Source of the DNA: a virus
DNA length: 49,380 bases
Direction: 5' to 3' (one strand)
Virus record (IMG/VR): IMGVR_UViG_3300021602_000165
Span: 1 to 49,380 of that record
The translations under genes were made by a program, and so were the position numbers. The notes under the pieces are model-generated. The model worked only from the letters and a program-made list of their open reading frames with translations. It was not told the DNA's origin and did not search any database. This document shows, piece by piece, positions 10,066 to 45,021 of this stretch. Numbering within the stretch: position 1 is the stretch's first letter; each line of letters begins with the position of its first letter.

Positions 10066-10200
10066 ATGTATAGAGTTAGTTACTACATGGCTGGCGGATC
10101 TAAGGTTCACAAAACGTTTAGCACGTTAGATGAGGCTATTAGATTTTCCATCTCTCCCCAGGTGGGGTTTGAAAACTTTTTTCAAATTATTAAAGAATAA
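10066..10200 (+). CDS. Very small protein (44 aa)
   Basis: An uninterrupted 44-codon frame (MYRVSYYMAGGSKVH...) from ATG 10066, directly after the upstream TAA, ending at a TAA whose last A begins the next ATG. This tight tiling, typical of the rest of the window, is the main evidence that it is translated. The pattern YRVSYYMAGG...FSTLDEAIRF looks like a small beta-hairpin plus helix. Function unknown. Confidence 0.5.
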   Translation: MYRVSYYMAGGSKVHKTFSTLDEAIRFSISPQVGFENFFQIIKE

Positions 10201-11387
10201 TGAAATTATATAAAATGCGTAAATTATGGTACATGGGACTTGAACCCTATAAAGCAAGATATACACTACAGTTACAAGACTGGAATGAAGCGGTATTTAA
10301 ACGTCGCGGAATTAACTACGAACTTGTGACTGGAGAAACAATTAGTAATGATCAGGCTATTGTAACGGGGCAAGTATTAGATGCACACGGACGTACTTAC
10401 TTTGGTATGAGTCAACTAATGAACCTTGTACGTAAGATGAAACAAGGAGAAGTTACGCATGAAGATGTTATCTATTTTGAAGATATGTTCCAGCCCGGTA
10501 TTGAGAGCCTACCTTATATTCTCGATCAAATCGATCCTGCTCATAGGCCTCGCATTGCTGTACGTTGCCTTGCACAAAGTATTGATCCAGATGACTTCGT
10601 TCATGTATGGGGTATGGCTAAGTGGATGGGACTTTATGAGAAGATGGTGGATAGTTTTGCGGATATTGTATTAGCATCAAACGAAGAAATGGTCATGCAC
10701 ATGAAGATTGCAGGCTGGGAAGCCCCCCTATACAACATCTCTGGATTGGCGTTCGGCAAAGATGAAGTACGTGCAAGAGTACCAGGTCCATTAAAACCAT
10801 TCAACGAGCGTACGATGCGTGTGGGTTTTGCGGCACGATGGGATCAAGAAAAACAGCCAGACTTCTTTATGGATCTAGCTGAACGTTTTCATTCGCAAAA
10901 TCCTAACTGTGAGTTTGCTGTATTCTCTGGTAGCAAACTTAAATCAAATAACAATAGTTATATGAACCGTACACGTGACTTGCAGGCACGTGGTGTATTA
11001 AAGATATACGAGGATTTAGAAAAGAATGATTACTATACTCTCCTTAACGATACTCGTGTGTTGTTTAATTGCGCCCTACAAGATTGGGTATCTAACACAG
11101 TTTCCGAAGCTGATACTTTGGGTGCTAATGTGTTGTATCCTGCTTATCGCAGTTTCCCCGAGACATTTGCAAACGATCCAGAACGACTTTATGTTCCTTG
11201 GTCATTGGATGATGCCAGTGGAAAATTAACTAAATTATTAGCGGCACCCCATGTAAATCAAGGACGGATTAGCGAGTGGACTGATGGTACAATTGATAGA
11301 ATAGTAGATATCCTTGAAGGCAAGGGTGAACAATGGAAACGTATGAATACCGATTATCGTAAACATACACATGAAAGCAAGTATTAA
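10200..11387 (+). CDS. Glycosyltransferase, GT-B fold (GT4-like)
   Basis: 395 residues. The C-terminal domain starts at MRVGFAARWDQEKQPDFF near 200, the usual beginning of the nucleotide-sugar-binding half of GT-B enzymes. It has LEKNDYYTLLNDTRVLFNC and SNTVSEADTLGANVLYP, matching the region with the conserved acidic residue that contacts the donor. The N-terminal half carries a Rossmann-like acceptor domain. It precedes the GalE and ADP-heptose genes, so it could use one of those donors. Target (DNA, virion or host surface) unknown. Confidence 0.7.
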   Translation: MKLYKMRKLWYMGLEPYKARYTLQLQDWNEAVFKRRGINYELVTGETISNDQAIVTGQVLDAHGRTYFGMSQLMNLVRKMKQGEVTHEDVIYFEDMFQPGIESLPYILDQIDPAHRPRIAVRCLAQSIDPDDFVHVWGMAKWMGLYEKMVDSFADIVLASNEEMVMHMKIAGWEAPLYNISGLAFGKDEVRARVPGPLKPFNERTMRVGFAARWDQEKQPDFFMDLAERFHSQNPNCEFAVFSGSKLKSNNNSYMNRTRDLQARGVLKIYEDLEKNDYYTLLNDTRVLFNCALQDWVSNTVSEADTLGANVLYPAYRSFPETFANDPERLYVPWSLDDASGKLTKLLAAPHVNQGRISEWTDGTIDRIVDILEGKGEQWKRMNTDYRKHTHESKY

Positions 11388-11633: not shown

Positions 11634-12044
11634 ATGGCACATTGGACTGTATCTACTGCGGAAAAGAAATCCTGTGAAGAGCGGGAGATTTGGACTAAAG
11701 GTAACAAAACTATTGTTCGTATTAACGGATTTCGTTGGGGTACATTTAGTGTAGAAACCAATGATGATAATCCGCCGGACGGAATTACTGCTGAGAACGA
11801 AGACAGCATTGATATGTATAGTCACTGCGGAGACAACATTGATACTATTGACCTAATATCAATGGACGATGGCTGGTACGGTGATTTTGAGTTTATTGGG
11901 TTTGAAGGAGACGAAGAACAAGAGATCCTTGATGCTATAGACGAAGCAGATGACTATTACGAATACCTAGAGGAAAACGGTTGGTCTAATGACGACACCG
12001 AAGGCTGGTTGCATGGTTCACTTGAAATCACAAAGGACGCATGA
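11634..12044 (+). CDS. Acidic small phage protein
   Basis: 136 residues, strongly acidic, especially residues 75-125 (GDEEQEILDAIDEADDYYEY). It has a GGAG site and overlaps galE by 4 bases. Strong acidity is seen in DNA mimics and in small phage regulators, but there is no motif to support either. Unknown function. Confidence 0.6.
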   Translation: MAHWTVSTAEKKSCEEREIWTKGNKTIVRINGFRWGTFSVETNDDNPPDGITAENEDSIDMYSHCGDNIDTIDLISMDDGWYGDFEFIGFEGDEEQEILDAIDEADDYYEYLEENGWSNDDTEGWLHGSLEITKDA

Positions 12045-13012
12045 AAAAAGTTATAGTAACAGGCGGATGTGGTTACATTGGTAGCCACATCGCTAGAGCC
12101 TTTAAATATAACTGTGATCAAGTAAACATTATTGATCAAGTCTTTCGCGAGCATACAGTCAAAGGTATAGATGGATACTTGATTGATGATTTTTCAAGCG
12201 ACTCTGCATTGGCATATATTATCAACACAGCACCCGATGTAATTGTGCATTGCGCTGGTACTAGTTTAGTGGGACCGAGCATGACCGACCCTGCTGAATA
12301 CTACGAAAATAATATTGTCAAGACCATTAAGCTATTAAATGTTATTAAGAATATGCCTAATCCGCCAATTATTCTTTTTAGTAGTAGTGCCAGTGTATAT
12401 GGTATTCCGGACTCGTGGCCTATTACCGAAGATAATGATGTTCAACCTATTAGCCCTTATGGTCGTACTAAAGCAATGACCGAAACTATACTGCGTGATT
12501 ATTTTACTGCGTATAATATTAATAGTATGTGTTTTAGATATTTCAATGCCGCGGGTGCAGAACCGTTCAGTTTTAATCTTGGGCAAGAACCAAAAGCAAC
12601 ACATATAATTGCACAAGCACTAGAAGCTAGTTTATCTAAACGTGCATTTTTTATTAATGGTGATGATTTTGATACCGAGGACGGAACATGTGTTCGTGAT
12701 TATATTCATGTATGGGATATTGCGACAGCCCATATCAAGGCCGTTAACTTTTTCTTTGAAGATTATCCGCAAAGCGGAGCATACATTTATAATCTTGGTA
12801 CTAAGACTGGTATCAGTAACAAACAAATCGTTGATTACGTGGCAAACAAATATGGATTACTCTTTGTAAAATATAGCCCACGTCGGATGGGAGACCCTGA
12901 TCTCCTAATAGCAGATTCCACTCGAGCGCAAGTTGAGCTTGGATGGAAACCCGAGCACAGCTCAATTGAATCTATAATTGATTCAGCATACACATGGTAT
13001 TGTCAAAAATGA
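12041..13012 (+). CDS. galE: UDP-glucose 4-epimerase-like (GalE)
   Basis: 323 residues of the extended SDR family. NAD-binding TGGCGYIGSH at 7-16, Ser of SSSASVYG, the YGRTK catalytic Tyr-Lys, then YFNAAGA and ATHIIAQALEA, which are GalE-typical, and a C-terminal GWKPEHS segment. Role: interconversion of UDP-Glc and UDP-Gal (or the N-acetyl forms), in the cytosol. It opens a run of overlapping sugar-nucleotide genes. Confidence 0.88.
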   Translation: MKKVIVTGGCGYIGSHIARAFKYNCDQVNIIDQVFREHTVKGIDGYLIDDFSSDSALAYIINTAPDVIVHCAGTSLVGPSMTDPAEYYENNIVKTIKLLNVIKNMPNPPIILFSSSASVYGIPDSWPITEDNDVQPISPYGRTKAMTETILRDYFTAYNINSMCFRYFNAAGAEPFSFNLGQEPKATHIIAQALEASLSKRAFFINGDDFDTEDGTCVRDYIHVWDIATAHIKAVNFFFEDYPQSGAYIYNLGTKTGISNKQIVDYVANKYGLLFVKYSPRRMGDPDLLIADSTRAQVELGWKPEHSSIESIIDSAYTWYCQK

Positions 13013-13380
13013 GATTAAACGGAATGGTTAAAAAGGGATGGGGCCATGAGCTGATATGGGCCACTAACGATCTCTACTGTGGTAAACTTATGCACTTTAA
13101 CAAAGATGCTAAGTTCAGTATGCATTTTCATTCTAACAAAGATGAAACATGGTTAATACTAGAAGGTAAGTTTGAACTACGTTATATTGATACCAAGGAT
13201 GCCAGCACCCACAGTAAAATACTAAAAGAAGGCGATACATGGCGCAATTATCCACTTGAACCACATCAATTGATATGCATTGAAGAAGGTATTGTTGTTG
13301 AAGTATCAACGCCGGATAGTGTCGAAGATAATTACCGTGTGGGTAAAGGTGACAGCCAGGCCAAAACGGAGAAGACATAA
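13009..13380 (+). CDS. Cupin-domain protein
   Basis: 123 residues from ATG 13009, overlapping the galE stop. Cupin motif 1 is seen as MHFHSNKDETWLILEGKFEL and motif 2 as LEPHQLICIEEGIVVEVS. Single-domain cupins of this type resemble the phosphomannose-isomerase C-terminal cupin and sugar epimerases or isomerases. Placement between galE and heptose genes supports a sugar role, but the substrate is unknown. Confidence 0.72.
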   Translation: MRLNGMVKKGWGHELIWATNDLYCGKLMHFNKDAKFSMHFHSNKDETWLILEGKFELRYIDTKDASTHSKILKEGDTWRNYPLEPHQLICIEEGIVVEVSTPDSVEDNYRVGKGDSQAKTEKT

Positions 13381-13865
13381 TGAAAACACTATATTTAGAC
13401 ATGGATGGCGTGGTAGCAGACTTCAATGCCTATGCTATAAAAACATTAACCAGGAAGATTGATGGTGACGAACGCTGGGCACCGGGCGAGTGGCGGAAAC
13501 TACGGGACAACCAACGACTATATAGGGATCTTGAACAGACTCCCGAAGCAGATCAATTGGTTGAATTTTGTCGCAATTTTTGTTTACAAAAAGAATATGC
13601 ACTATTATTTCTGACAGCAATTCCCAAGAAGAATGATGTACCCTGGGCATTCTATGATAAAGTATTATGGGCACAATTACGGTATCCTGACATTCCAGTT
13701 ATGTTTGGTCCATACAGCCAGGACAAACAACATCACTATTGTGCTGGCGACATTTTAATTGACGATCGTACAAGCAATATTGAACAATGGCGAGCCGCAG
13801 GCGGCTTTGGTATATTGCATAAGGGTAACCTGGCATCAACTATAGGACATCTACAATGTCTTTAG
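13380..13865 (+). CDS. HAD-superfamily phosphatase (possible GmhB-role enzyme)
   Basis: 161 residues with HAD motif I YLDMDGVVADF (D7, D9), motif II LLFLTAIP, and motif IV GDILIDDRTSNIEQW. By sequence it looks like the deoxyribonucleotidase (NT5C) type. It lies directly before the adenylyltransferase and kinase of an ADP-heptose pathway, which needs a heptose-1,7-bisphosphate 7-phosphatase (a HAD enzyme, GmhB). Its position suggests that job; its sequence does not prove it. Confidence 0.72.
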   Translation: MKTLYLDMDGVVADFNAYAIKTLTRKIDGDERWAPGEWRKLRDNQRLYRDLEQTPEADQLVEFCRNFCLQKEYALLFLTAIPKKNDVPWAFYDKVLWAQLRYPDIPVMFGPYSQDKQHHYCAGDILIDDRTSNIEQWRAAGGFGILHKGNLASTIGHLQCL

Positions 13866-14254
13866 TTGTAGTCAACGGTACGTTTGACATTTTGCATGTT
13901 GGCCATATTATGCTTCTTAATACTGCACGTAGTATGGGGGATTACCTTTTAGTATGCATCGATACCGACCGTAGAGTTGCAGAACTAAAAGGTGTAGACC
14001 GACCTATTAACAATCAAAGTGATCGCAGAGCTATGCTTAGTAATATTAAAGCCGTGGATCAAGTTGAATTGTTTGACACCGACCAAGATCTAATAGAGTT
14101 ATTAAAATTATATAAACCTACCATTATGGTCAAGGGCAGTGACTATAGGGGCAAACATATTGTTGGTGCTGAATATTGTAAAAGTATAGAATTTTTTGAA
14201 AGAACAAATGATTATTCCACAACAAAAACAATTCACAATATTATTAATCGGTGA
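13856..14254 (+). CDS. HldE C-terminal-like heptose-1-phosphate adenylyltransferase
   Basis: 132 residues of the cytidylyltransferase-like family. NGTFDILHVGH holds the HxGH nucleotide-binding signature, VKGSDYRGK follows near 95, and the end has STTKTI, matching the xSTT motif. Size and motifs fit the adenylyltransferase half of HldE/RfaE. Here it is a separate gene placed before the kinase, the reverse of the usual kinase-adenylyltransferase fusion. A glycerol-3-phosphate cytidylyltransferase (TagD) is the main alternative; the neighbours favour heptose. Confidence 0.78.
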   Translation: MSLVVVNGTFDILHVGHIMLLNTARSMGDYLLVCIDTDRRVAELKGVDRPINNQSDRRAMLSNIKAVDQVELFDTDQDLIELLKLYKPTIMVKGSDYRGKHIVGAEYCKSIEFFERTNDYSTTKTIHNIINR

Positions 14255-14972
14255 TTATTGCACTGACATATATCAATACGGAACAGTAGACCGCATTAGC
14301 CCAGAAGCACCAGTACCTGTATTTAAATTCAATTATGAAGAACAACGTCCCGGAATGGCGGGCAATGTATATCAAAATCTAATCGCACTTGGTTGCGATG
14401 TGCAATTCTTACATGGAAATACTTCAATCAAAACACGGCTAATTGATAGCCGTAGCAAACAACATATTGTACGAATTGATAATGATGTAGTATCAATGCC
14501 GCTAGAACTTGAGACTGATGTACCACCGGTATACGATGCAATTGTAATTAGTGATTACAATAAGGGGACTGTTAGTTACGAATTAATTGAAAAACTAAAG
14601 CACCAAGGTATTCCTGTTTTTATTGATACAAAGAAAACAGACCTAGCCAGGTTAGAAGGTTGCTACGTTAAAATTAACAGTTTAGAATATAGTCTTGCTA
14701 AAACATTTCCCACAGAGCTAATAGTTACTACAGGGAAAGACGGGGCGATGTATAAGGGTCAAACATATCCTACTCCTGTGGTTAGTATAACCGACACATG
14801 CGGCGCCGGCGATACTTTCTTAGCGGCACTAGTATATCAACAGCTAAGTACTAGTAATATACATCAAGCCATTGAATTTGCCAATGTAGCATCATCAATA
14901 ACCGTACAACATAGCGGTGTATATGCACCCACCTTAAAAGAAATAAATGAAAATATTACTAACCGGACATAA
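14208..14972 (+). CDS. HldE N-terminal-like heptose-7-phosphate kinase (PfkB family)
   Basis: About 254 residues. ATG 14208 is taken as start; a TTG at 14196 is in frame. The N-terminal pattern LLIGDYCTDIYQYGTVDRISPEAPVPVF is cited here by its core ISPEAPVPV, typical of RfaE/HldE. The ATP/catalytic motif DTCGAGDTF lies near 200 with the catalytic Asp. Role: phosphorylation of D-glycero-D-manno-heptose 7-phosphate at C1. It overlaps the adenylyltransferase by 47 bases and HldD by 26. It is shorter than the E. coli kinase domain by roughly 60 residues. Confidence 0.8.
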   Translation: MIIPQQKQFTILLIGDYCTDIYQYGTVDRISPEAPVPVFKFNYEEQRPGMAGNVYQNLIALGCDVQFLHGNTSIKTRLIDSRSKQHIVRIDNDVVSMPLELETDVPPVYDAIVISDYNKGTVSYELIEKLKHQGIPVFIDTKKTDLARLEGCYVKINSLEYSLAKTFPTELIVTTGKDGAMYKGQTYPTPVVSITDTCGAGDTFLAALVYQQLSTSNIHQAIEFANVASSITVQHSGVYAPTLKEINENITNRT

Positions 14973-15720
14973 TGGATTTATCGGTAGCCACATGCTTAAG
15001 GCCTTATCTGGCCACGAAGTTGCTACATACGAATGGGGCGATACATATCGTCATGGCGTTATGGGGTTTGATTGGGTTATACACCTGGGTGCAATTAGCT
15101 CAACTACAGAACGAGATATAGAAAAAGTACTCACACAAAATTTAGATTTTAGTATCAATCTATATGATGAATGTAAAACTTTTGGAGTCAACTTCCAATA
15201 TGCATCATCGGCTAGTATATATGGGCTAGTAAGTACGTTTAGCGAAGATGCTCCCCCGGATCCACGCACTCCGTATGCTTGGTCTAAGTATTTGTTTGAA
15301 CGATATGTACGTACTCACCCAAGTGGTAGTATTGTACAGGGCTTTAGGTATTTTAACGTGTACGGTCCCGATGGCGAAGGTCACAAAGGGTCACAAGCAA
15401 GCCCATACTACCAATTTGCTAAACAAGCAAAAGAAACCAATAGCATCAAACTGTTTAAAAACAGTGATAAATATCTTAGGGATTTTATTCACGTTGATGA
15501 ATTAGTGGCTACTCAGTTAAAATTTTTAAATGTTAAAGAATCCGGTATATGGAATGTTGGCACCGGGAACACAAAAAGTTTTGCTGATGTGGCAAAAACA
15601 TTTAATGTGAAACTAATCGAAATCCCAATGCCTGCTATATTAACAGACAGTTATCAAAAATATACTTGTGCGGATCGTACTAAATTAAATGAAACGTTAG
15701 CGAAATTAAATGAGTTTTAA
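14947..15720 (+). CDS. hldD: ADP-L-glycero-D-manno-heptose 6-epimerase (HldD)
   Basis: 257-residue extended SDR with diagnostic HldD segments: LLTGHNGFIGSH, HLGAISSTTE, YASSASIYG, the YAWSK catalytic pair, GFRYFNVYGP followed by GHKGSQAS, and RDFIHVDEL. Role: NADP-dependent inversion at C6 of ADP-D,D-heptose to ADP-L,D-heptose, the donor for inner-core LPS. It is about 50 residues shorter than the E. coli enzyme. Overlaps on both sides place it in one operon with the kinase and the DegT gene. Confidence 0.88.
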   Translation: MKILLTGHNGFIGSHMLKALSGHEVATYEWGDTYRHGVMGFDWVIHLGAISSTTERDIEKVLTQNLDFSINLYDECKTFGVNFQYASSASIYGLVSTFSEDAPPDPRTPYAWSKYLFERYVRTHPSGSIVQGFRYFNVYGPDGEGHKGSQASPYYQFAKQAKETNSIKLFKNSDKYLRDFIHVDELVATQLKFLNVKESGIWNVGTGNTKSFADVAKTFNVKLIEIPMPAILTDSYQKYTCADRTKLNETLAKLNEF

Positions 15721-16288
15721 CGCACTATTTGAATTTGAAGAAGCATTGGCCAAGTATACCGGGGCGCCATATGCCGTTGTGACCGATGGTGGGACTCATG
15801 CAATTGAACTATGTCTGCGATACAAAAAAGTTACCACATGCGAATTCACAGCACATACGTATCTTAGTATACCCATGCTTATGCATCACTTAAACATCAA
15901 GTATAGACTAATCAACGAAGATTGGCTTGGTGAGTATTGTTTTTATAATACAAATATATGGGATAGTGCCCGCAGATTGCAACCAGACATGTATAGGGAA
16001 AAACAAATGCAATGTCTGAGCTTTGGATATTCTAAACCGCTAGAGTTGGGCAAAGGTGGTGCAATACTACTTGATAATGTTGAAGCATACAAAGAGTTAA
16101 GCATGATGAGGTCGGATGGCAGGGACCTACACATCAATCCTTGGGAAACACAAACAACATTTAAGCCAGGATATCATTACTGCCCTACATTAGAATTATG
16201 TAACGAAGGTATCAAGAAACTTTCTGTTACCAACAGCGTACAGGATGTGGCATATCCAGACTGCCGTTTACTTAATATAACGAATTAA
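15710..16288 (+). CDS. Compact DegT/DnrJ/EryC1-type aminotransferase
   Basis: 192 residues against about 370-400 for the family. TDGGTHAIELCL matches the phosphate-binding N-terminus, NIWDSARRL carries D85 (pairs with the pyridine nitrogen of PLP), and SFGYSKPLELGKGGAIL carries K109 (Schiff base). It ends after a GYHYCPTLELCN segment corresponding to the GYNYRM motif, so the small C-terminal domain is missing. It may be a reduced functional enzyme, a subunit or a remnant. Its end overlaps the opposing ligase gene by 17 bases. Confidence 0.65.
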   Translation: MSFNALFEFEEALAKYTGAPYAVVTDGGTHAIELCLRYKKVTTCEFTAHTYLSIPMLMHHLNIKYRLINEDWLGEYCFYNTNIWDSARRLQPDMYREKQMQCLSFGYSKPLELGKGGAILLDNVEAYKELSMMRSDGRDLHINPWETQTTFKPGYHYCPTLELCNEGIKKLSVTNSVQDVAYPDCRLLNITN

Positions 16289-17348
16289 GAAGAGTCCTAG
16301 ATACTTTACCTGTGGCGTTGAGTGGTATTGCATCCACTTGTTCTACCAAGCTAGGTCTACAATGCTTACCCAGGCTAGATAAAAATACGCTAATACTGTC
16401 AGCATCGCAGGTGCCAACAAACAAACATTTAACAGTATCGGTACCAAATACAGCACATTCCACCAATCCATTGATTGATTGTAATAACTGTCGTTCTAGA
16501 CTGACTGGATTTAATTTTGATCCGCGAACATTTATTTGATCTTTGTGCCGGCCAAGTATCTTATAATATCCAGCATCGTCTTGCTCCGCCAAATCTCCGG
16601 TATCATACCATCTACTGCCCAATGTAACACCACTAAGGTGTAAGCGACCGTGTTCAATCTTGGCGATAACCCCATCTGGTAATCCAACTGTACCTATACG
16701 TTGTTCACCATGTAACGGGTTTGTGAAGCAATGGCTCATTGCTTCTGTCATACCAAATGCTTCTATTACAGGTACATTAAACTTATCCTGTAGTTTTATA
16801 TAAGTTTCGTTTGGTAGTGGCGCACTAGCAGATCTAATAAATCGTAAATGATCAAAGTTTAATCCGCCAATTGCATTAAGTATATCAGGAATAGCAGTAA
16901 TAAAGGTTGGCTTATATTCAGGCATTGTGCGTAGATCTTTAACTGTTATAAAATGAGTTTCACATTTGGCCATTTGTGTTGCCCAATAAAAGCCTTGGCC
17001 GTGTGCATGCCATAAACTCATTACACTAACATACCTATCGTTTGCTGTAAGGTCGTAAGAGTTAATGATAGTTTTAGCCATGTGATCTAATTGTGGTTGA
17101 CTAAAGCTACAAAATTTGCTATCCCCAGTGGTGCCAGACGTATACCAAAGCACACGTTCATTTGGGTATTTCTTCCCTTCTCTTGTTTTTTCCTCGGTCG
17201 CTGTTATAAGTAAACTCCAATCGGAATTTTCTAAAAGGTATCGATTCCGTGCGGCAGTTGCATTTGGGTTTAGAACCATAATGCTATAGTTGGGTAGGGT
17301 GGGAATGTAGTCTTGTGGATTGTCCACACACAGCACAGCACGTTTCAT
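16272..17348 (-). CDS. Minimal acyl-adenylate-forming ligase (AMP-binding family)
   Basis: 358 residues against 500-600 for typical members. All core motifs are present: A3 YTSGTTGDSK (69-78), A5 EAFGMTEAM near 196, A7 YDTGD (248-252), A8 GRHKDQINVRG near 266, and the catalytic Lys of A10 PLNATGKVSRT (K348). The missing part is the N-terminal region before A3. Family role: activates a carboxylate with ATP and passes it to a thiol or amine. There is no carrier-protein gene nearby, and the substrate is unknown. It opposes the DegT gene, so it could N-acylate an amino sugar (inference). Confidence 0.85.
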   Translation of the reverse strand: MKRAVLCVDNPQDYIPTLPNYSIMVLNPNATAARNRYLLENSDWSLLITATEEKTREGKKYPNERVLWYTSGTTGDSKFCSFSQPQLDHMAKTIINSYDLTANDRYVSVMSLWHAHGQGFYWATQMAKCETHFITVKDLRTMPEYKPTFITAIPDILNAIGGLNFDHLRFIRSASAPLPNETYIKLQDKFNVPVIEAFGMTEAMSHCFTNPLHGEQRIGTVGLPDGVIAKIEHGRLHLSGVTLGSRWYDTGDLAEQDDAGYYKILGRHKDQINVRGSKLNPVSLERQLLQSINGLVECAVFGTDTVKCLFVGTCDADSISVFLSSLGKHCRPSLVEQVDAIPLNATGKVSRTLLNSLY

Positions 17349-17467: not shown

Positions 17468-18373
17468 TTGCAAAAGAAATTCGTTCCTATTTACACAGAT
17501 GTAGTAGATCGAACATTTAAACCACATCCAGTTTTGCATCCTACTCAACCAACCGAAGGCGAGAAGCAGGCGGCCGCATGGTTACAGGACGAGTTTTATG
17601 ACTTGGATAAAGATGAACCAACACAGGAGAGCACTTTGACAGAATCAGTAACATACCAAAACATAGACGAAAAGGGCTATGAAGAATGTAATCTAGCGGA
17701 TGCTATTCGCTTTAAGATGAAACGTGATAAGAAACGTTTTTGGGCAGGAGACAATATTAGTGATTACCTACACGAAGGTGACAAAGAAAAACTAATCAAT
17801 GAAGCAACTGAAGCATTTGAAAAAGTATTAGACACGTTGCTCATTGATCGCGAAAACGATCCTAACAGCAAGGGCACAGCCAAGCGACTGGCCAAGATGT
17901 ATTTCAACGAAGTAATGGGAGGTCGATATGATCCAGCACCAAATGCAACGGCTTTTCCAAATGATAGTGAAGGTAGATATGAAGGTATGTTGGTGGTACG
18001 TAGTGAGTTACGAAGCATGTGTAGCCATCACCATCAGCCTGTATCTGGTGTGGCTTATATCGGTATCATCGCTGCTAATAAATTAATTGGTCTCAGCAAG
18101 TATACTCGTATTGCTCAGTGGTGTGCTCGCCGTGGTACGTTACAAGAAGAACTATGTAACGACATTGCAAGAGAAATAATGAAGGCCACAGAAAGCGAAA
18201 ACGTAGCGGTTTATATCCAAGCGACCCATGGTTGTTGCGAAAACCGAGGCATTATGGCACATAGTTCGCTAACACAGACTACTGTACTTAAAGGTGCTTT
18301 CCAAACAGACTCTGGTACCAAGAAAGAGTTTATGGATAATATTAAACTACAGCAGGAATTTGCTCCAAGATAA
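17468..18373 (+). CDS. folE: GTP cyclohydrolase I (FolE)
   Basis: 301 residues; starts at TTG 17468 behind CGGAG. The catalytic domain (about 105-285) has MCSHHHQP with C185 and H188 as zinc ligands, IGLSKYTRI, QEELCNDIA, and a second Cys in THGCCENRG (C256/C257). Role: GTP to 7,8-dihydroneopterin triphosphate, the first step to 7-deazaguanines. About 100 extra N-terminal residues precede the core; E. coli FolE is 222 residues. Its own promoter and the distant queD/queE suggest separate control of pathway entry. Confidence 0.94.
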   Translation: MQKKFVPIYTDVVDRTFKPHPVLHPTQPTEGEKQAAAWLQDEFYDLDKDEPTQESTLTESVTYQNIDEKGYEECNLADAIRFKMKRDKKRFWAGDNISDYLHEGDKEKLINEATEAFEKVLDTLLIDRENDPNSKGTAKRLAKMYFNEVMGGRYDPAPNATAFPNDSEGRYEGMLVVRSELRSMCSHHHQPVSGVAYIGIIAANKLIGLSKYTRIAQWCARRGTLQEELCNDIAREIMKATESENVAVYIQATHGCCENRGIMAHSSLTQTTVLKGAFQTDSGTKKEFMDNIKLQQEFAPR

Positions 18374-19447: not shown

Positions 19448-19770
19448 TGATCCCGTTGCCGCCCGGGTGTAAGGTATCGTACGAAATACGTTTTTTAGTA
19501 CCAGAACTAACAGATGAAATAGGTGAATGGTTTAATATGATTGGTGGTCATGCCGGTGCGATCGAAGAGTTTGACTATCGAGGTCGCAAACATATAGTAA
19601 AACAAGTACAATACGGTAAGGCAAAACCAAGCTACGTTACTAAAGATGGTACTGGACTTACCTTAATTCGTTTTACTGGCGAAGATGCAAGCACAGCCAG
19701 TGTATTTTTATTAAAATTTATGGAAAAGATTCAGAGTCACAATTTTAACATATATAAGGATGGAAAATAG
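19447..19770 (+). CDS. Unknown small protein
   Basis: 107 residues, starting on the last A of the upstream TAA. Features are YEIRFLVPELTDEIGEWF and a C-terminal helix VFLLKFMEKIQSHNFN. Mixed alpha/beta. No family recognised; tiling with both neighbours supports translation. Confidence 0.6.
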   Translation: MIPLPPGCKVSYEIRFLVPELTDEIGEWFNMIGGHAGAIEEFDYRGRKHIVKQVQYGKAKPSYVTKDGTGLTLIRFTGEDASTASVFLLKFMEKIQSHNFNIYKDGK

Positions 19771-19771
19771 C

Positions 19772-20341
19772 ATGACTATTAATAAAGTGTACTACACAGA
19801 TAAAACAATTAAAAGCTGGATGCACGACATTATTCAAACAATGTACGCTGACGATTTTAAACCCGATTACATTGTGGGTATCACTCGCGGCGGCCTGACT
19901 CCTGCATCTATGCTTAGTTACTACTTAAGAACGCCAATGGTTGCGCTAGATGTTAGTTTCCGAGAAGACTCCGAAGTAGGACAAGAAAGTAATTTGTGGT
20001 TAGCCGAAGAAGCGTTCGGATATGTTTCTTCCATTGATCAAGATGGCATGGAAGATCCAGGTGACAAACCAAACTATGCGTTAAATGCTAAAAATATTCT
20101 TATCGTTGACGACATCAATGATACCGGACGTACACTACAATGGATTAAAGATGATTGGGAAAGTGGTTGTCTTCCAACTAACGAAAGATGGGAAGGCGTC
20201 TGGCACAATAATGTAAGATTTGCTGTAATGATTAATAACGAAGCAAGTGAGTTCAAAAATATTGACTATGCAGGGTTGCATATCAATAAACTTGAAGAAC
20301 CAATTTGGTGTGTATTTCCGTGGGAAGAATGGTGGCGTTAA
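19772..20341 (+). CDS. Phosphoribosyltransferase-family protein
   Basis: 189 residues from ATG 19772 (an in-frame ATG at 19760 has no space for a ribosome site). The PRPP-binding signature is NILIVDDINDTGRTL near 107-121, and YIVGITRGGLTPASML near 30 matches the pyrophosphate loop. Type I PRTases exchange a base for pyrophosphate on PRPP. Acceptor base unknown; a purine or deazapurine salvage role would fit the neighbours but is inference. Confidence 0.82.
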   Translation: MTINKVYYTDKTIKSWMHDIIQTMYADDFKPDYIVGITRGGLTPASMLSYYLRTPMVALDVSFREDSEVGQESNLWLAEEAFGYVSSIDQDGMEDPGDKPNYALNAKNILIVDDINDTGRTLQWIKDDWESGCLPTNERWEGVWHNNVRFAVMINNEASEFKNIDYAGLHINKLEEPIWCVFPWEEWWR

Positions 20342-20766: not shown

Positions 20767-21246
20767 ATGGCAAAGAAATATTTTAGTACTAAAACGTATA
20801 GGCAAATTGGTCCAGTTGCATACCGACAGTGGAGAGCAGATAGCCATTGTAATCAGATTCACGGATATGCAATGAGTTTCCATTTTGAATTTGAAGCTGA
20901 TACACTGGATGCCCGTAATTGGGTTACTGACTTTGGTGGACTAAAGCCGCTAAAGGAACATTTAGAAGATTGGTTTGATCATACATTGCTAGTTGCACAA
21001 GATGATCCAATGCGTGAACATTTGCTGGAACTTGGTAGACTTAAACTTGCCAAGATCACAGAAGTTGAAAAGACTGGTTGCGAAGGCATCGCAGACTTCT
21101 TGTACGAATACATTAATACAATTTTTTTACCAAACTGTGGTGCGGAAGAAGCTAAACGTGTTTGGTGTTGTAAGGTAGAAGTAAGAGAAACCGACAGCAA
21201 TATGGCTGGACGTAAAGGTCACAGGGAAGATCGAGAATTTGATTAA
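20767..21246 (+). CDS. queD: 6-carboxy-tetrahydropterin synthase (QueD)
   Basis: 159-residue T-fold enzyme of the phage type. ADSHCNQIHGY gives zinc-site His residues (H27, H32) and C28, WVTDFGGLK is the family strand, FDHTLL supplies the catalytic Asp-His pair (D71, H72), GCEGIADFL has the PTxE-like Glu (E106) and VEVRET the substrate-anchoring Glu (E141). The usual HGH is HGY here. Role: dihydroneopterin triphosphate to 6-carboxy-tetrahydropterin. First gene of an operon leading to QueE. Confidence 0.88.
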   Translation: MAKKYFSTKTYRQIGPVAYRQWRADSHCNQIHGYAMSFHFEFEADTLDARNWVTDFGGLKPLKEHLEDWFDHTLLVAQDDPMREHLLELGRLKLAKITEVEKTGCEGIADFLYEYINTIFLPNCGAEEAKRVWCCKVEVRETDSNMAGRKGHREDREFD

Positions 21247-22097
21247 TGGAATCCTCTGATATAAATTGGTTACATGTAGAGGCTAGTTCAAGGTGCAATG
21301 CATGGTGCCCGGCATGTCCACGTAACAAATCCGGTTACGGACTTGCTGATGGACTAGTTGAAACAGACTTGACTGTAGACCAATTTAAATCAGTTCTGGC
21401 TACGTTACCCAATTTAACTAGTATACAATTTTGTGGTAATCATGGTGATCCAATTATTTCAAAAAATATATTAGAATTGATTGACGTTGCAATAGATTAT
21501 TCTAAACAAATACAGATACAAATACATACCAATGGCAGTTTACGTTCTAAGTCGTGGTGGGCTAATCTAGCAAATATGTTATCTAAGGTCAAACATGAAG
21601 TTTGGTTTGGATTAGATGGACTACTGGGTGTACATGAAATCTATCGGCAAGGAACGTCGTTTAACAAAGTTATAGAAAATGCCACTAGCTTTATTGATAA
21701 CGGAGGTTATGCTGTTTGGCAATTTATACCCTATGGGCATAATGAACATCAGACTAAAGACTGTCATCGTATGAGTCAAAAATTAGGATTTAAAAAATTC
21801 CAATTGGCTAAACTACATCGTCGAAATACTGTTGCAAAACACTTTCAAACAGGCAATGAATTTATATTAGAAGCACCTAAACAATTTCAAGATATCATTC
21901 GTGTGGTTAAGGATTACAAAACGGTTGATGTTAAAAATTGTATGCATTTTTCATATCCAAGTGTGTATTTGTCGGCCCAGGGCAAACTTAGCACCTGTTG
22001 TTATCAATCTAAAAATAACGTTGACAATGTAAATGATTTGTTATATACTATGCAAGACTTATCAAATCGTATTTGTCTATATAGCTGTGGATCTTAA
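21246..22097 (+). CDS. Radical SAM protein with SPASM-like C-terminus
   Basis: 283 residues. RCNAWCPACPR gives a CX3CX2C cluster site near 17-24. GNHGDP near 63 occupies the place of the GGEP motif, and IHTNGS near 97 is a typical radical SAM strand. Late Cys residues in NCMHF, STCCY and CLYSC suggest a second Fe-S site as in SPASM proteins. The substrate is unknown. It lies between queD and queE and overlaps queD by one base, so a tailoring step on a deazapurine or a peptide is possible. Confidence 0.82.
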   Translation: MESSDINWLHVEASSRCNAWCPACPRNKSGYGLADGLVETDLTVDQFKSVLATLPNLTSIQFCGNHGDPIISKNILELIDVAIDYSKQIQIQIHTNGSLRSKSWWANLANMLSKVKHEVWFGLDGLLGVHEIYRQGTSFNKVIENATSFIDNGGYAVWQFIPYGHNEHQTKDCHRMSQKLGFKKFQLAKLHRRNTVAKHFQTGNEFILEAPKQFQDIIRVVKDYKTVDVKNCMHFSYPSVYLSAQGKLSTCCYQSKNNVDNVNDLLYTMQDLSNRICLYSCGS

Positions 22098-22119: not shown

Positions 22120-22392
22120 ATGAACAATAAGATTAAAGAAGCACTGGGAATACTCCAGGAAGAATGCGCCGAAGTTATTGTAGAAGTTAGTAAATGCAAT
22201 CGCTTTGGTATGGATAGTAATCACTATAAAACTGGATTGAAGCATAGTATTATGCTTGAAACAGAAATTGGTGATATGTTAGCATTAGTTGATATCCTAA
22301 TTGAGCAAGGCGTACTTGATGTAGATGGATTGGAAGTAGCCAAGGAAAATAAGAAGCAAAAACTTAAACAATGGTCAAGCATATATGAGTAA
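22120..22392 (+). CDS. MazG-like NTP pyrophosphohydrolase
   Basis: 90 residues, all helical. The metal-binding pattern is seen as LQEECAEVIVEVSK (ExxE-type) and LETEIGDMLALVD (ExxD). All-alpha NTP pyrophosphatases hydrolyse (d)NTPs to NMP and pyrophosphate. In phages they are proposed to adjust nucleotide pools. AGAGG ribosome site; overlaps queE by 8 bases. Confidence 0.78.
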   Translation: MNNKIKEALGILQEECAEVIVEVSKCNRFGMDSNHYKTGLKHSIMLETEIGDMLALVDILIEQGVLDVDGLEVAKENKKQKLKQWSSIYE

Positions 22393-23245
22393 AATTAAAG
22401 TATCAGAACTATTTTATAGTTTACAAGGCGAAGGGCGATTTATCGGAGTACCAAGTGTATTCCTTAGAACCTATGGTTGTAATTTTACTTGTAGTGGGTT
22501 TGGTTGCAAGCCCGGGGAAAAATCAACTGAAGCAGATGAAGTTGCTAAAGTAGTTAACAAGTACGATACATTCTTGAGTTTGCCATTGGTTAATACTGGA
22601 TGCGATAGCTATGCAAGTTGGCATCCAGGATTTAAACATCTCAGTCCAACTGTAACAACAGAAGACCTAGTAAATCAAATGTTGGCGTTAACCCCAAATA
22701 ATAAATGGGTGCAGAATAACGGCAATGATGTACATCTTGTTATAACAGGTGGTGAGCCATTGCTAGGTTGGCAACGTGCTTATCCAGAGTTATTGTCGCA
22801 TCCTAAGATGGCCGATTTAAAGAACATCACATTTGAAACAAACGGCACCCAGGAATTGCACGAAGACTTTAGGGACTACTTAATTGATTGGGCAGAAGGC
22901 CCCGGGCGAGAAGTTACGTTTAGTGTCAGTGCCAAGTTAAGTGCGTCAGGTGAAACATGGGAAGATGCTATCAAGCCAAAGATTGTTAATATATATCAGA
23001 CATATGGCCATGTTTATCTTAAGTTTGTTGTTGAAACACAAGACCATGTTAACGAAGCAGTCAAGGCAGTTGATGCCTTTAGACATGATGGATTTAAGGG
23101 TGTGGTATACTTAATGCCGCAAGGTGGAGTTGTTGACCCATACGAATCTAACAAACTAAACATTGCCAATATTTGTGTTGAGCATGGATTTAACTATAGT
23201 CCAAGACTGCATGTTGATTTGTGGGGCAATGGTTGGGGTAAATGA
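22385..23245 (+). CDS. queE: 7-carboxy-7-deazaguanine synthase (QueE)
   Basis: 286-residue radical SAM enzyme. FYSLQGEGRFIGVPSVFLR is the QueE opening, followed by GCNFTCSGFGC (C32, C36, C41), TGGEPLL near 121 and FETNGT near 149. The spacing CX3CX4C departs from the canonical CX3CX2C; C73 (TGCDSYASW) is an alternative third ligand, as in QueE variants with extended cluster loops. Role: 6-carboxy-tetrahydropterin to 7-carboxy-7-deazaguanine using SAM and Mg. Confidence 0.9.
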   Translation: MSKIKVSELFYSLQGEGRFIGVPSVFLRTYGCNFTCSGFGCKPGEKSTEADEVAKVVNKYDTFLSLPLVNTGCDSYASWHPGFKHLSPTVTTEDLVNQMLALTPNNKWVQNNGNDVHLVITGGEPLLGWQRAYPELLSHPKMADLKNITFETNGTQELHEDFRDYLIDWAEGPGREVTFSVSAKLSASGETWEDAIKPKIVNIYQTYGHVYLKFVVETQDHVNEAVKAVDAFRHDGFKGVVYLMPQGGVVDPYESNKLNIANICVEHGFNYSPRLHVDLWGNGWGK

Positions 23246-42107: not shown

Positions 42108-42978
42108 GCAAGGAACCCAGAAGGGTGATCGTACCGGTGTAGGTACTATTAGCCTGTTTGGTATGCAACAACGATATAACCTTGCAGAATCATTCCCCGC
42201 AGTAACAACTAAAAAATTAGCCTGGAAATCATGTGTAGGTGAACTACTATGGATGATTGAAGGTAGTGGTGACGAACGTAGACTTGCGGAAATCACACAT
42301 GGTACTAGAGATGGTGTAGTAACTATCTGGACGCCCAATGCTCTCGCACATTACTGGAAACCCAAGGCACAGTTTGAAGGTGACCTAGGTCGTGTGTACG
42401 GAGTACAGTGGAGACACTGGCGCAGTTCACAACATGTTAAAACTGGTAGTATTAAAAACGACTGCGGAAGTTACTTTAGTGTGCAAGGCGGTATTCAAGA
42501 AGTTGAAATAGATCAACTTAAACAATTAATAACCGATATTATTAGAGACCCACACGGACGACGACATATACTATCAGCATGGAACCCCGGCGAATTAGAA
42601 GCCATGGCCCTGCCACCGTGTCATGTTTTAGCACAGTTTTACGTAGCAGACGGCAAGTTATCTTGCCAAATGTATCAGCGTTCCTGCGACATGTTCTTAG
42701 GCGTGCCTTTCAACATAGCATCCTATTCCTTACTCACACATATGATTGCTCAAGTGTGCGGTCTTGAAGTAGGAGAGTTCGTTCACGTGCTCGGCGACGC
42801 ACACATTTATATGACCCATATAGAGCAGGTTAAAGAACAGTTAAATCGTGAACCATTACCTGCCCCGCAACTATGGCTTAACCCCGATATAAAAGATATT
42901 ACTAAATTTACAATGGCAGATATTAAACTTGAAGGCTACACTAGCCACGGTGCCATTAAAGCGGAAATGGCTGTATGA
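42070..42978 (+). CDS. thyA: Thymidylate synthase (ThyA)
   Basis: 302 residues. GDRTGVGTISLFG at the N-terminus binds dUMP phosphate; the catalytic Cys is in LPPCHVLAQFYV (C184); QRSCDMFLGVPFNIASY and GDAHIYMTH complete the site. Role: dUMP methylation with methylene-tetrahydrofolate. Tandem with DHFR, as in T4 (frd-td). No intron seen. Confidence 0.96.
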   Translation: MNHYLAALKQVLEQGTQKGDRTGVGTISLFGMQQRYNLAESFPAVTTKKLAWKSCVGELLWMIEGSGDERRLAEITHGTRDGVVTIWTPNALAHYWKPKAQFEGDLGRVYGVQWRHWRSSQHVKTGSIKNDCGSYFSVQGGIQEVEIDQLKQLITDIIRDPHGRRHILSAWNPGELEAMALPPCHVLAQFYVADGKLSCQMYQRSCDMFLGVPFNIASYSLLTHMIAQVCGLEVGEFVHVLGDAHIYMTHIEQVKEQLNREPLPAPQLWLNPDIKDITKFTMADIKLEGYTSHGAIKAEMAV

Positions 42979-43955
42979 AATTTTTAGTAACTGGTGGTGC
43001 TGGATTTATTGGGCACAATGTAGTACGGCAATTAGAACAAGCAGGACATGAATGCTGTGTACTTGATTGTGTAACAGACTATGGGTTTGTACCACAAGAC
43101 GAATTAGCGTATCTATATCGTGAACGTGTAAAGCGTATCCAGGCACACATATACCATGTGGATTTGCGAAATGCAAGTGGTGTTGCAAACTGGTTTGCTC
43201 ACTACAGCCAAGGTGCCGATGCTGTTATACATCTAGCAAGTTTCCCAAGGCAAAAAGTAGTCAGTGCTAACCCGGTGTGGGGTGCAGAGGTTATGGGAAC
43301 TGGACTTGTTAACCTATTAGAGTTAACTAAGCAATACAATATTCCAAAGTTTGTTTACATTAGTAGTTCAATGGTGTACGGCAACTTCGATGATGATGTA
43401 AAAGAAGATTACAATTGTAAACCGCAGGGCCAATATGGCATTATGAAGCTAATGGGAGAAAATCTTGTTAAAGACTATACTCGTCGGAATGTGTTTGATC
43501 ATGTTATTATCCGCCCTAGTGCTGTATACGGAGAGTACGACGTCGAAGACCGAGTTGTGTCTAAATTTGTACTCTCCGCAATGCGAGGAGAGACACTTAA
43601 AGTTAATGGAGCAAATGAAACTCTTGATTTTACGTATGTCGAAGACGCCGCCGCAGGTATTGTTGCCGCAACATTAAGTAATAACGCAATCAATAATACG
43701 TACAACATTACCAAGAGTCATAGTACATCACTACTACAGGCCGCTAAACTTGCAATTAAAATTGCTGGTAGTGGTAAGGTACATGTGGGATTCAAAGATG
43801 CAGATTTCCCAAGTCGTGGCGCATTAAACATTGATGCCGCACGTAAAGATTTTAACTTTAATCCAAAAGTAGATGTTGAAGAAGGTTTCCAAAAATATGC
43901 CAACTGGTTCAGTGATAGCGTTTACTGGTCTACCAAGACAGTACCAAACGCTTAA
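42975..43955 (+). CDS. NAD-dependent nucleotide-sugar epimerase/dehydratase
   Basis: 326-residue extended SDR: LVTGGAGFIGHN, VIHLASFPRQK, YISSSMVYG, and catalytic YGIMK. IRPSAVYGEYDVEDRVVSKF and LDFTYVEDAA are typical of UDP-sugar 4-epimerases and 4,6-dehydratase relatives. Substrate not determined. It overlaps thyA by 4 bases and the aminotransferase by about 59, forming the second sugar island. Confidence 0.85.
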   Translation: MKFLVTGGAGFIGHNVVRQLEQAGHECCVLDCVTDYGFVPQDELAYLYRERVKRIQAHIYHVDLRNASGVANWFAHYSQGADAVIHLASFPRQKVVSANPVWGAEVMGTGLVNLLELTKQYNIPKFVYISSSMVYGNFDDDVKEDYNCKPQGQYGIMKLMGENLVKDYTRRNVFDHVIIRPSAVYGEYDVEDRVVSKFVLSAMRGETLKVNGANETLDFTYVEDAAAGIVAATLSNNAINNTYNITKSHSTSLLQAAKLAIKIAGSGKVHVGFKDADFPSRGALNIDAARKDFNFNPKVDVEEGFQKYANWFSDSVYWSTKTVPNA

Positions 43956-45021
43956 ACACGAATTACTAGAAGCCACTGATAAAGTATTATCAAGTGGGCA
44001 GGTTCTTGACGGCCCGTATACAATGGCATTTGAACAGGAAATTGCCAATAGGTGTGATAGAGCCTATGCCATTTCTGTTAATAGTTGCACACAGGCATTA
44101 ATATTTGCCCAGGGTGTATTGGGCATTGGCGATAGTAAAGTTCTTATTCCAACACAAACATTTATTGCCACATTGAATAGTGTAGTGTTAGCAGGCAACG
44201 AGCCTGTATTCTGCGATGTAGATGATAATGCATTATTAGATATTGATTCATGTGATGTGGCTCTTGCTGGCGCTGGTGTAGAGGCAGTGATGTATGTAAA
44301 TTTGTTTGGTAACATACTTGATTACGATAAACTAAAGTTAGCCTGTAAATTCTTTAACCCCAACAATGACATTGCTATTATTGAAGATGCGGCTCAAAGT
44401 TTTGGAGCATCATACAAAGGCAGACCGTCCGGTAGTCTAGGTGACATTAGTGTTTTAAGTTTTGACCCCACAAAGAATTTACCTAACTATGGATCAGGTG
44501 GTATGATACTAACAGATGATCCGGATATAGCACAACGATGCCGCGATCTCAAAGACAATGGTAAATTCCTTGGTAATATAATTGCTGGCACTAACAGTAA
44601 AATGAGCGAAGTAGATTGTGGTCACATGCTAGTTAAATTAAATTATTTCGACGCATGGCAAGCACGGCGTACTAAAATTGCAGATTTTTATACAGAGCAT
44701 CTAAGTGCGTATGTAGATCCCATGCTACCAAACGATAATGTTATTCATGCCTGGCACAAATATGTTATACGTGTACACAGTCGACATAATTTAGAAACGT
44801 ACCTGAGTAAACACGGTATTGAGACCAAAGTACACTACGAAAAAGCACTACACGAATATGATTTAGCCTATGATTATAACAATAATTATAACTACGAAGC
44901 TTTTAGAAGTGCTGTTGCACATAGCAAAGAAGCACTGAGTTTACCGATATACCCAGAGATGACTGATGCCGAAGTCGAAACAGTAGCAGAAACTATTGTT
45001 GAATATTATGCAGGCGAGTAA
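43897..45021 (+). CDS. DegT/DnrJ/EryC1 sugar aminotransferase, full length
   Basis: About 375 residues. ATG 43897 or GTG 43912 gives the usual start just before TGLPRQYQTLK. NSCTQALIFA binds PLP phosphate, IIEDAAQSFGASYKG carries the ring Asp, and SFDPTKNLPNYGSGGMIL the Schiff-base Lys. Role: PLP transfer of an amino group to a keto-nucleotide sugar, a natural partner of the preceding epimerase/dehydratase. Its end overlaps the opposing gene by 29 bases. Confidence 0.88.
   Translation: MPTGSVIAFTGLPRQYQTLKHELLEATDKVLSSGQVLDGPYTMAFEQEIANRCDRAYAISVNSCTQALIFAQGVLGIGDSKVLIPTQTFIATLNSVVLAGNEPVFCDVDDNALLDIDSCDVALAGAGVEAVMYVNLFGNILDYDKLKLACKFFNPNNDIAIIEDAAQSFGASYKGRPSGSLGDISVLSFDPTKNLPNYGSGGMILTDDPDIAQRCRDLKDNGKFLGNIIAGTNSKMSEVDCGHMLVKLNYFDAWQARRTKIADFYTEHLSAYVDPMLPNDNVIHAWHKYVIRVHSRHNLETYLSKHGIETKVHYEKALHEYDLAYDYNNNYNYEAFRSAVAHSKEALSLPIYPEMTDAEVETVAETIVEYYAGE

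Follow-up and report, generated by a model that had tools for sequence, protein, structure and literature searches.

The window analysed here is the entire 49,380-base virus record IMGVR_UViG_3300021602_000165 of IMG/VR. It was 99.995% identical to a 136-kb IMG/VR contig over the 20.8 kb compared and is a fragment of the virus represented by this contig. The virus is a giant phage known from metagenomes, and its DNA polymerase was closest to those of jumbo phages, e.g. Sinorhizobium phage Phosso and Agrobacterium phage Atu_ph07. Between positions 12994 and 15720 lie five consecutive genes of one direction, each touching or overlapping the next (Table 1); they encode a cupin, a HAD phosphatase, an HldC-like nucleotidyltransferase, an HldA-like kinase and an HldD-like epimerase. 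Four overlapping open reading frames (ORFs) had been described before from the letters alone (sequence-only reading), for the HAD protein, an HxGH nucleotidyltransferase, a PfkB kinase and HldD, and all four were recovered as described. The adjoining cupin gene, which overlaps with the GalE-like gene upstream and the HAD gene downstream, had been left out. We consider it likely that the five-gene phage set builds ADP-heptose from sedoheptulose-7-phosphate, with the cupin as first enzyme.

The last three enzymes of the set are named HldC-, HldA- and HldD-like, because their scores lie below the NCBI equivalog cut-offs. The nucleotidyltransferase holds the HxGH stretch VNGTFDILHVGH, and N7, G8, F10, D11, H14, G16 and H17 were invariant in its alignment. 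For the kinase the ORF was listed from TTG 14196, but ATG 14208 is the likelier start; its relatives overlap with the HldC gene as well, by about 46-115 nt. The kinase contains GTVDRISPEAPVPVF and the motif DTCGAGDTF. The substrate-side motif RISPEAPVPV and the catalytic motif GAGD are both present, and the protein has the HldA fold. Its AlphaFold2 (AF2) model reached a pLDDT of 93.4, and the Foldseek PDB hits of ranks 1-7 were all Burkholderia HldA (B. cenocepacia) with E down to 5e-21. The HldD-like protein is short. With the profile of its alignment E. coli HldD (PDB 1eq2) was found at E 1.7e-72. The catalytic residues Y140, K144 and K178 of the E. coli enzyme correspond to Y110, K114 and K147 in the window and were invariant in the HldD alignment.

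Table 1 Genes of the window discussed in the text; profile scores and cut-offs in bits
Gene product	Position	Strand	Length	Profile match	Cut-off	Competing profile
Cupin, phrog_7851 / T4-GC307 family	12994-13380	+	128 aa	Cupin_2 29.7	27.2	
HAD phosphatase, NT5C/deoxyribonucleotidase type	13380-13865	+	161 aa	PF06941 31.6; phrog_2643 88.5	24.8 (PF06941, gathering)	
HldC-like heptose-1-phosphate adenylyltransferase	13856-14254	+	132 aa	TIGR02199 122.4; phrog_7878 163	181.5 (TIGR02199, equivalog)	TagD TIGR01518 63.3
Short HldA-like heptose-7-phosphate kinase, PfkB family	14208-14972	+	254 aa	TIGR02198 144.3; phrog_8133 296	345 (TIGR02198, equivalog)	ribokinase 54
HldD-like ADP-glyceromanno-heptose 6-epimerase	14947-15720	+	257 aa	TIGR02197 203.3	274.6 (TIGR02197, equivalog)	GalE 78
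GalE-like UDP-glucose 4-epimerase	12041-13012	+		TIGR01179 293	262.3	
Protein with weak glycosyltransferase match	10200-11387					
Short DegT aminotransferase-like ORF	15710-16288		192 aa			
AMP-binding ligase-like protein	16272-17348	-		PF00501 94		
FolE (GTP cyclohydrolase I)	17468-18373					
Phosphoribosyltransferase-like protein	19760-20341					
QueD-like protein	20767-21246					
Radical SAM protein	21246-22097					
QueE-like protein	22385-23245					
Full-length DegT and epimerase	42975-45021			DegT 282		

Within the alignment of the cupin family, K14, G15-W16-G17, E19, H46, H91, E103, D112 and R115 were present in 61/61 sequences, H44 and E51 in 60/61. The protein is a beta-barrel of the cupin superfamily with the metal site HxH(x4)E...H, formed by H44, H46, E51 and H91. 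Its pattern KGWGxE ... ExST ... EDxxR is phosphomannose isomerase-like. Foldseek with the AF2 model (pLDDT 92.4) retrieved metal cupins including D-lyxose isomerase and the phosphomannose isomerase of Thermococcus. These enzymes share the fold and the metal site with the window cupin, but D-lyxose isomerase and archaeal phosphomannose isomerase are only about 16-19% identical to it, and the predicted substrate here is a C7 ketose phosphate. Cupin sugar isomerases give the manno or lyxo aldose, as GmhA does.

A search for GmhA, GmhB and heptosyltransferases had been proposed together with the first description. In the 136-kb contig neither GmhA nor a GT9 heptosyltransferase was found, and the HAD protein of the window matched no GmhB model. 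SIS-type GmhA was detected in none of 20 IMG/VR contigs (45-357 kb, including those of 136, 280, 345 and 357 kb) and in none of seven cyanophage records; the identical searches were positive in 14/14 control genomes. A hidden GmhA in the virus of the window was rejected, as searches with PF13580 and TIGR00441 were negative for the 136-kb contig and its relatives. Among 25 phage records TIGR00441 found one, cyanophage SynMITS9220M01, with a weak SIS match. GmhA was also not found in the one Prochlorococcus genome examined; with this single genome no conclusion on hosts is drawn. It had been suggested that the absent GmhA may come from the host. This is probably wrong, and the cupin next to the HAD gene is the probable isomerase, to which exchanges with GmhA, fusions with kinases and the association with GDP-heptose genes point.

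The exchange was observed in archaea. Searching cellular genomes with the cupin profile yielded operons of Woesearchaeota/Nanoarchaeota with all ADP-heptose enzymes but GmhA, and with the cupin gene first. The analysis covered 237 genomes of this DPANN phylum, with 52 loci of HldA kinases scoring at least 200 bits and their neighbours within 6 kb. GmhA was near 27 of these kinases and the cupin near 11; both were found near none and neither near 14. At genome level, the Fisher test gave p = 0.0003, not corrected for relatedness. Operons of the order GT9-GmhA-HldD-kinase-GmhB-HldC (L225, L226) compare with GT9-cupin-HldD-kinase-GmhB-HldC (L200, L201). Thus, it is the same operon, in which the first sugar gene alone is exchanged. 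Furthermore, fusion proteins combine the kinase with GmhA (L196-L198) or with the cupin (L192-L195). Other fusions join the cupin to HldD (L130) or place it between GmhB and HldC, with all three domains in one 475-aa archaeal protein (L204:605-2032, minus strand). The kinase tree requires six changes between the GmhA and the cupin state, and well-supported branches force at least four of these. Therefore, the association of the kinase with GmhA or cupin is not a single inherited event. The metagenome-assembled genomes (MAGs) are incomplete, and the cellular loci include contigs of uncertain origin.

The DPANN operons contain the same cupin family as the window, about 40% identical, beside HldA, HldC and HldD. 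They differ from the window in their full-length kinases, a true GmhB and frequent gene fusions. In L197 and L198 two heptose kinases adjoin in one archaeal operon, one of them fused to GmhA. Two contigs represent misbinning or gene transfer: L118, which belongs to a 'Bifidobacterium breve' MAG although its heptose cluster is phage-like, and L142, a Nomurabacteria contig with the archaeal-type operon cupin-HldD-kinase-GmhB-HldC, whose cupin is 84% identical to a Woesearchaeota one.

The same cupins occur in a second route. In the cyanophages Bellamy and SynMITS9220M01 the cupin gene is flanked by HddA (279 and 287 bits) on one side and an HddC-like gene on the other, both of the GDP-heptose route. 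This route has only the isomerase and phosphatase steps in common with the ADP-heptose route, and the shared phosphatase step is carried out by a HAD protein. Besides its cupin set, SynMITS9220M01 has a second, divergent HddA-like kinase beside a divergent SIS protein (TIGR00441 47 bits) at L219:12556-14003. From the operon exchanges, the fusions and the presence in two pathways, it appears quite likely that the phrog_7851 / T4-GC307 cupins are a new family of sedoheptulose-7-phosphate isomerases unrelated to GmhA, which start ADP- and GDP-heptose synthesis in many phages and were repeatedly swapped with GmhA in DPANN archaea. With the cupin as isomerase, the phage pathway would be complete, and self-sufficient, from sedoheptulose-7-phosphate.

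In the viral contigs scanned, 195 relatives of the kinase were found. Among 54 non-redundant phage loci, HldC was present in 54, HldD in 50 and the cupin in 48; the HldC gene overlaps with that of the kinase in 53. All 31 phage records with the kinase, many of them near-duplicates, also have the cupin; in the 345-kb contig it does not adjoin the kinase but lies elsewhere. The sequence-only reading had contrasted the separate, reordered halves of HldE with the usual single protein. As a novelty this does not hold: in bacteria, HldA and HldC as distinct proteins are ordinary (HldA, PDB 4e84; BpHldC, PMC7993394). The reversed order is not new either. In P-SSM2, S-CAM1, Sf-FS3 and S-SSM7 the nucleotidyltransferase precedes the kinase, together with a small HAD, cupin and HldD. 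The overlapping pair in this order was seen in 53/54 phage loci and had been published for cyanophages by 2010. Thus, the sugar-making gene set was already known in cyanophages. T4-GC 304, 305, 307 and 308 were described as co-occurring 'LPS genes' (LPS, lipopolysaccharide) of unknown use (Sullivan et al. 2010, PMC3037559). The T4-GC 304-308 cluster (P-SSM2 PSSM2_309-313; S-CAM1, S-SSM7; PMC3037559) shares the overlapping HldC and kinase genes, small HAD, cupin and HldD with the window. The window differs in its NT5C-type HAD, which is placed between cupin and HldC, and in its co-directional HldD gene.

In the proposed pathway the cupin would convert sedoheptulose-7-phosphate to heptose-7-phosphate in place of GmhA, and the short HldA-like kinase would make the 1,7-bisphosphate. 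The HAD protein would take off the 7-phosphate, the HldC-like enzyme would add AMP and HldD would epimerise C6. The ADP-heptose most likely feeds phage-directed glycosyltransfer to the virion or the host surface. The predicted chemistry is that of the bacterial pathway of GmhA, HldE (HldA and HldC), GmhB and HldD, and HldA, HldC and HldD are homologous. Unlike the bacterial pathway, the window has a cupin for the SIS-fold GmhA, an NT5C HAD for GmhB, and a short kinase and epimerase. That this phage encodes an ADP-heptose pathway had been proposed in the sequence-only reading and is supported by the profiles, the fold of the kinase, the HldD residues, purifying selection and the occurrence in many phages; the HAD protein, however, turned out to be of the NT5C type and not GmhB.

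The HAD protein shows the conserved DxD, T, K and DD motif residues in its alignment. No NCBIfam model was matched at E up to 0.1, the GmhB models TIGR00213 and NF006506 included. It is predicted to be the heptose-1,7-bisphosphate 7-phosphatase, a GmhB-like role supported by its position. In phage operons the cupin is followed by one of three kinds of HAD: a GmhB relative (HAD-IIIA; NF006506 141 bits, TIGR00213 89 bits), an EcbF/BcbF-like mini-HAD (about 100-115 aa) that carries DxD and DDK motifs, or the NT5C type as in the window. As 24 of the 26 in-operon phosphatase genes have their start at the cupin gene's 3' end (GmhB 12/14, mini-HAD 8/8, NT5C 4/4), the three kinds presumably fill the same step. 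A possible, if rather doubtful, alternative is that the protein is a 5'(3')-deoxyribonucleotidase of nucleotide salvage, located in the operon by chance, and that a host enzyme carries out the 7-phosphatase step. Its best families are indeed NT5C and phrog_2643, homologues occur in jumbo phages, e.g. Atu_ph07 and Phosso, and five other phage loci have NT5C HADs that lie apart from the operon. Against chance speaks the exact placement of the NT5C HAD in four loci: it adjoins the cupin gene's 3' end, the position of GmhB or mini-HAD in other phages.

The cyanophage 'phosphoheptose isomerase' was considered as a GmhA and rejected: the protein (L002:6740-7084, L003:6728-7051, L006:7670-8005 and others) is the mini-HAD and looks misannotated. 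The cyanophage labels 'nucleotidyltransferase' or 'cysteine dioxygenase' on the cupin are not supported by the sequences and look like misannotations as well.

For the cupin it has to be discussed whether heptose-7-phosphate is supplied by the GmhA of the host and the cupin has another role in the pathway, e.g. in regulation or in epimerising the nucleotide sugar at a later step. This is unlikely. It would fit that sugar epimerases and isomerases of the RmlC and FdtA type are cupins, that 4/13 archaeal-type genomes retain a GmhA elsewhere in addition to their cupin operon, some of them beside a further GmhB, and that close relatives of the cupin exist away from heptose genes. It does not fit that GmhA and cupin never stand beside the same archaeal kinase, that they replace each other at one operon position and in kinase fusions, and that the cupin serves the GDP-heptose route too.

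Besides the retained archaeal GmhA genes, the following observations weigh against the cupin-started ADP-heptose pathway. Oxalate decarboxylase and quercetinase are among the fold matches of the cupin as well; therefore, the fold alone does not show an isomerase. Among the cellular cupin relatives, 27/55 lack a neighbouring HldA/HldE or HddA (within 6 kb); some of them are about 60% identical to the window cupin and some cellular relatives adjoin other sugar genes. With about half of the relatives away from a heptose kinase, the family may hold other activities. SynMITS9220M01 carries both the cupin and the divergent SIS protein. In 24/54 phage loci no phosphatase was present in the fetched stretch, so the 7-phosphatase step may often be the host's; like the NT5C HADs outside operons, these loci also speak against one common step of the three kinds of HAD. 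The scores of kinase, HldC-like and HldD-like proteins below the equivalog cut-offs count here too. Finally, no clear heptose-consuming glycosyltransferase was detected in the virus of the window, where the protein at 10200-11387 gave a weak glycosyltransferase match only. GT9-like genes were found in 9/20 related contigs.

An activity of kinase and nucleotidyltransferase towards another sugar or polyol (TagD-type CDP-glycerol, CDP-ethanolamine or similar) is very improbable and was rejected because of the profile scores and folds. Structures of TagD and Pcyt2 are matched by the HldC profile too, though this fold is common to the whole family. The TIGR02199 score is twice that of TIGR01518, HldA is by far the best family of the kinase, kinase and HldD are specific to the HldA and HldD families by profile and structure, and HldD co-occurs constantly. 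Profiles favouring other sugars, which had been named at the outset as speaking against the pathway, were thus not seen. Non-functional stuffer DNA has been considered for the cyanophage 'LPS' clusters (PMC3037559), and no phenotype is known. For the genes discussed here this is hardly credible, as the median dN/dS values (kinase 0.12, cupin 0.05, HldC 0.07, HldD 0.09) show strong purifying selection on all four genes and the catalytic residues are invariant across many phages.

In seven phage loci (L018:154-3619, L040:6820-9637 and relatives) a GT9/heptosyltransferase III-like gene and a NodU-type carbamoyltransferase gene lie beside the heptose genes; both are candidates for the heptose user and decoration. 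In the window, the GalE-like neighbour is probably co-transcribed with the cupin but is not needed for ADP-heptose. After HldD follows a short DegT aminotransferase-like ORF, which covers 192 aa compared with 360 positions of the family; a full-length DegT with an epimerase is located further downstream. The AMP-binding ligase-like protein, encoded next to the sugar genes but on the other strand, is unusual for a phage. The FolE, QueD-like and QueE-like genes, accompanied by phosphoribosyltransferase-like and radical SAM genes, probably serve the synthesis of preQ0/7-deazaguanine, perhaps for DNA modification.

In the open-access literature searched, no paper joins cupin, heptose and GmhA, and the sole paper with both cupin and sedoheptulose-7-phosphate isomerase mentions each once; subscription papers were outside this scope. 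The assignment of the cupin is thus likely, but not certainly, new. In the literature, GmhA is the enzyme with which glycero-manno-heptose synthesis begins, and it is a drug target (PMC11056994, PMC5387315). If the cupin is indeed a second, unrelated entry enzyme, heptose pathways would have to be recognised differently in genomes. 'Incomplete' heptose pathways of phages and DPANN archaea would be explained, and the cyanophage annotation of mini-HAD and cupin would be corrected. The old question whether the cyanophage 'LPS' clusters do anything (PMC3037559) would be reduced to one assay.

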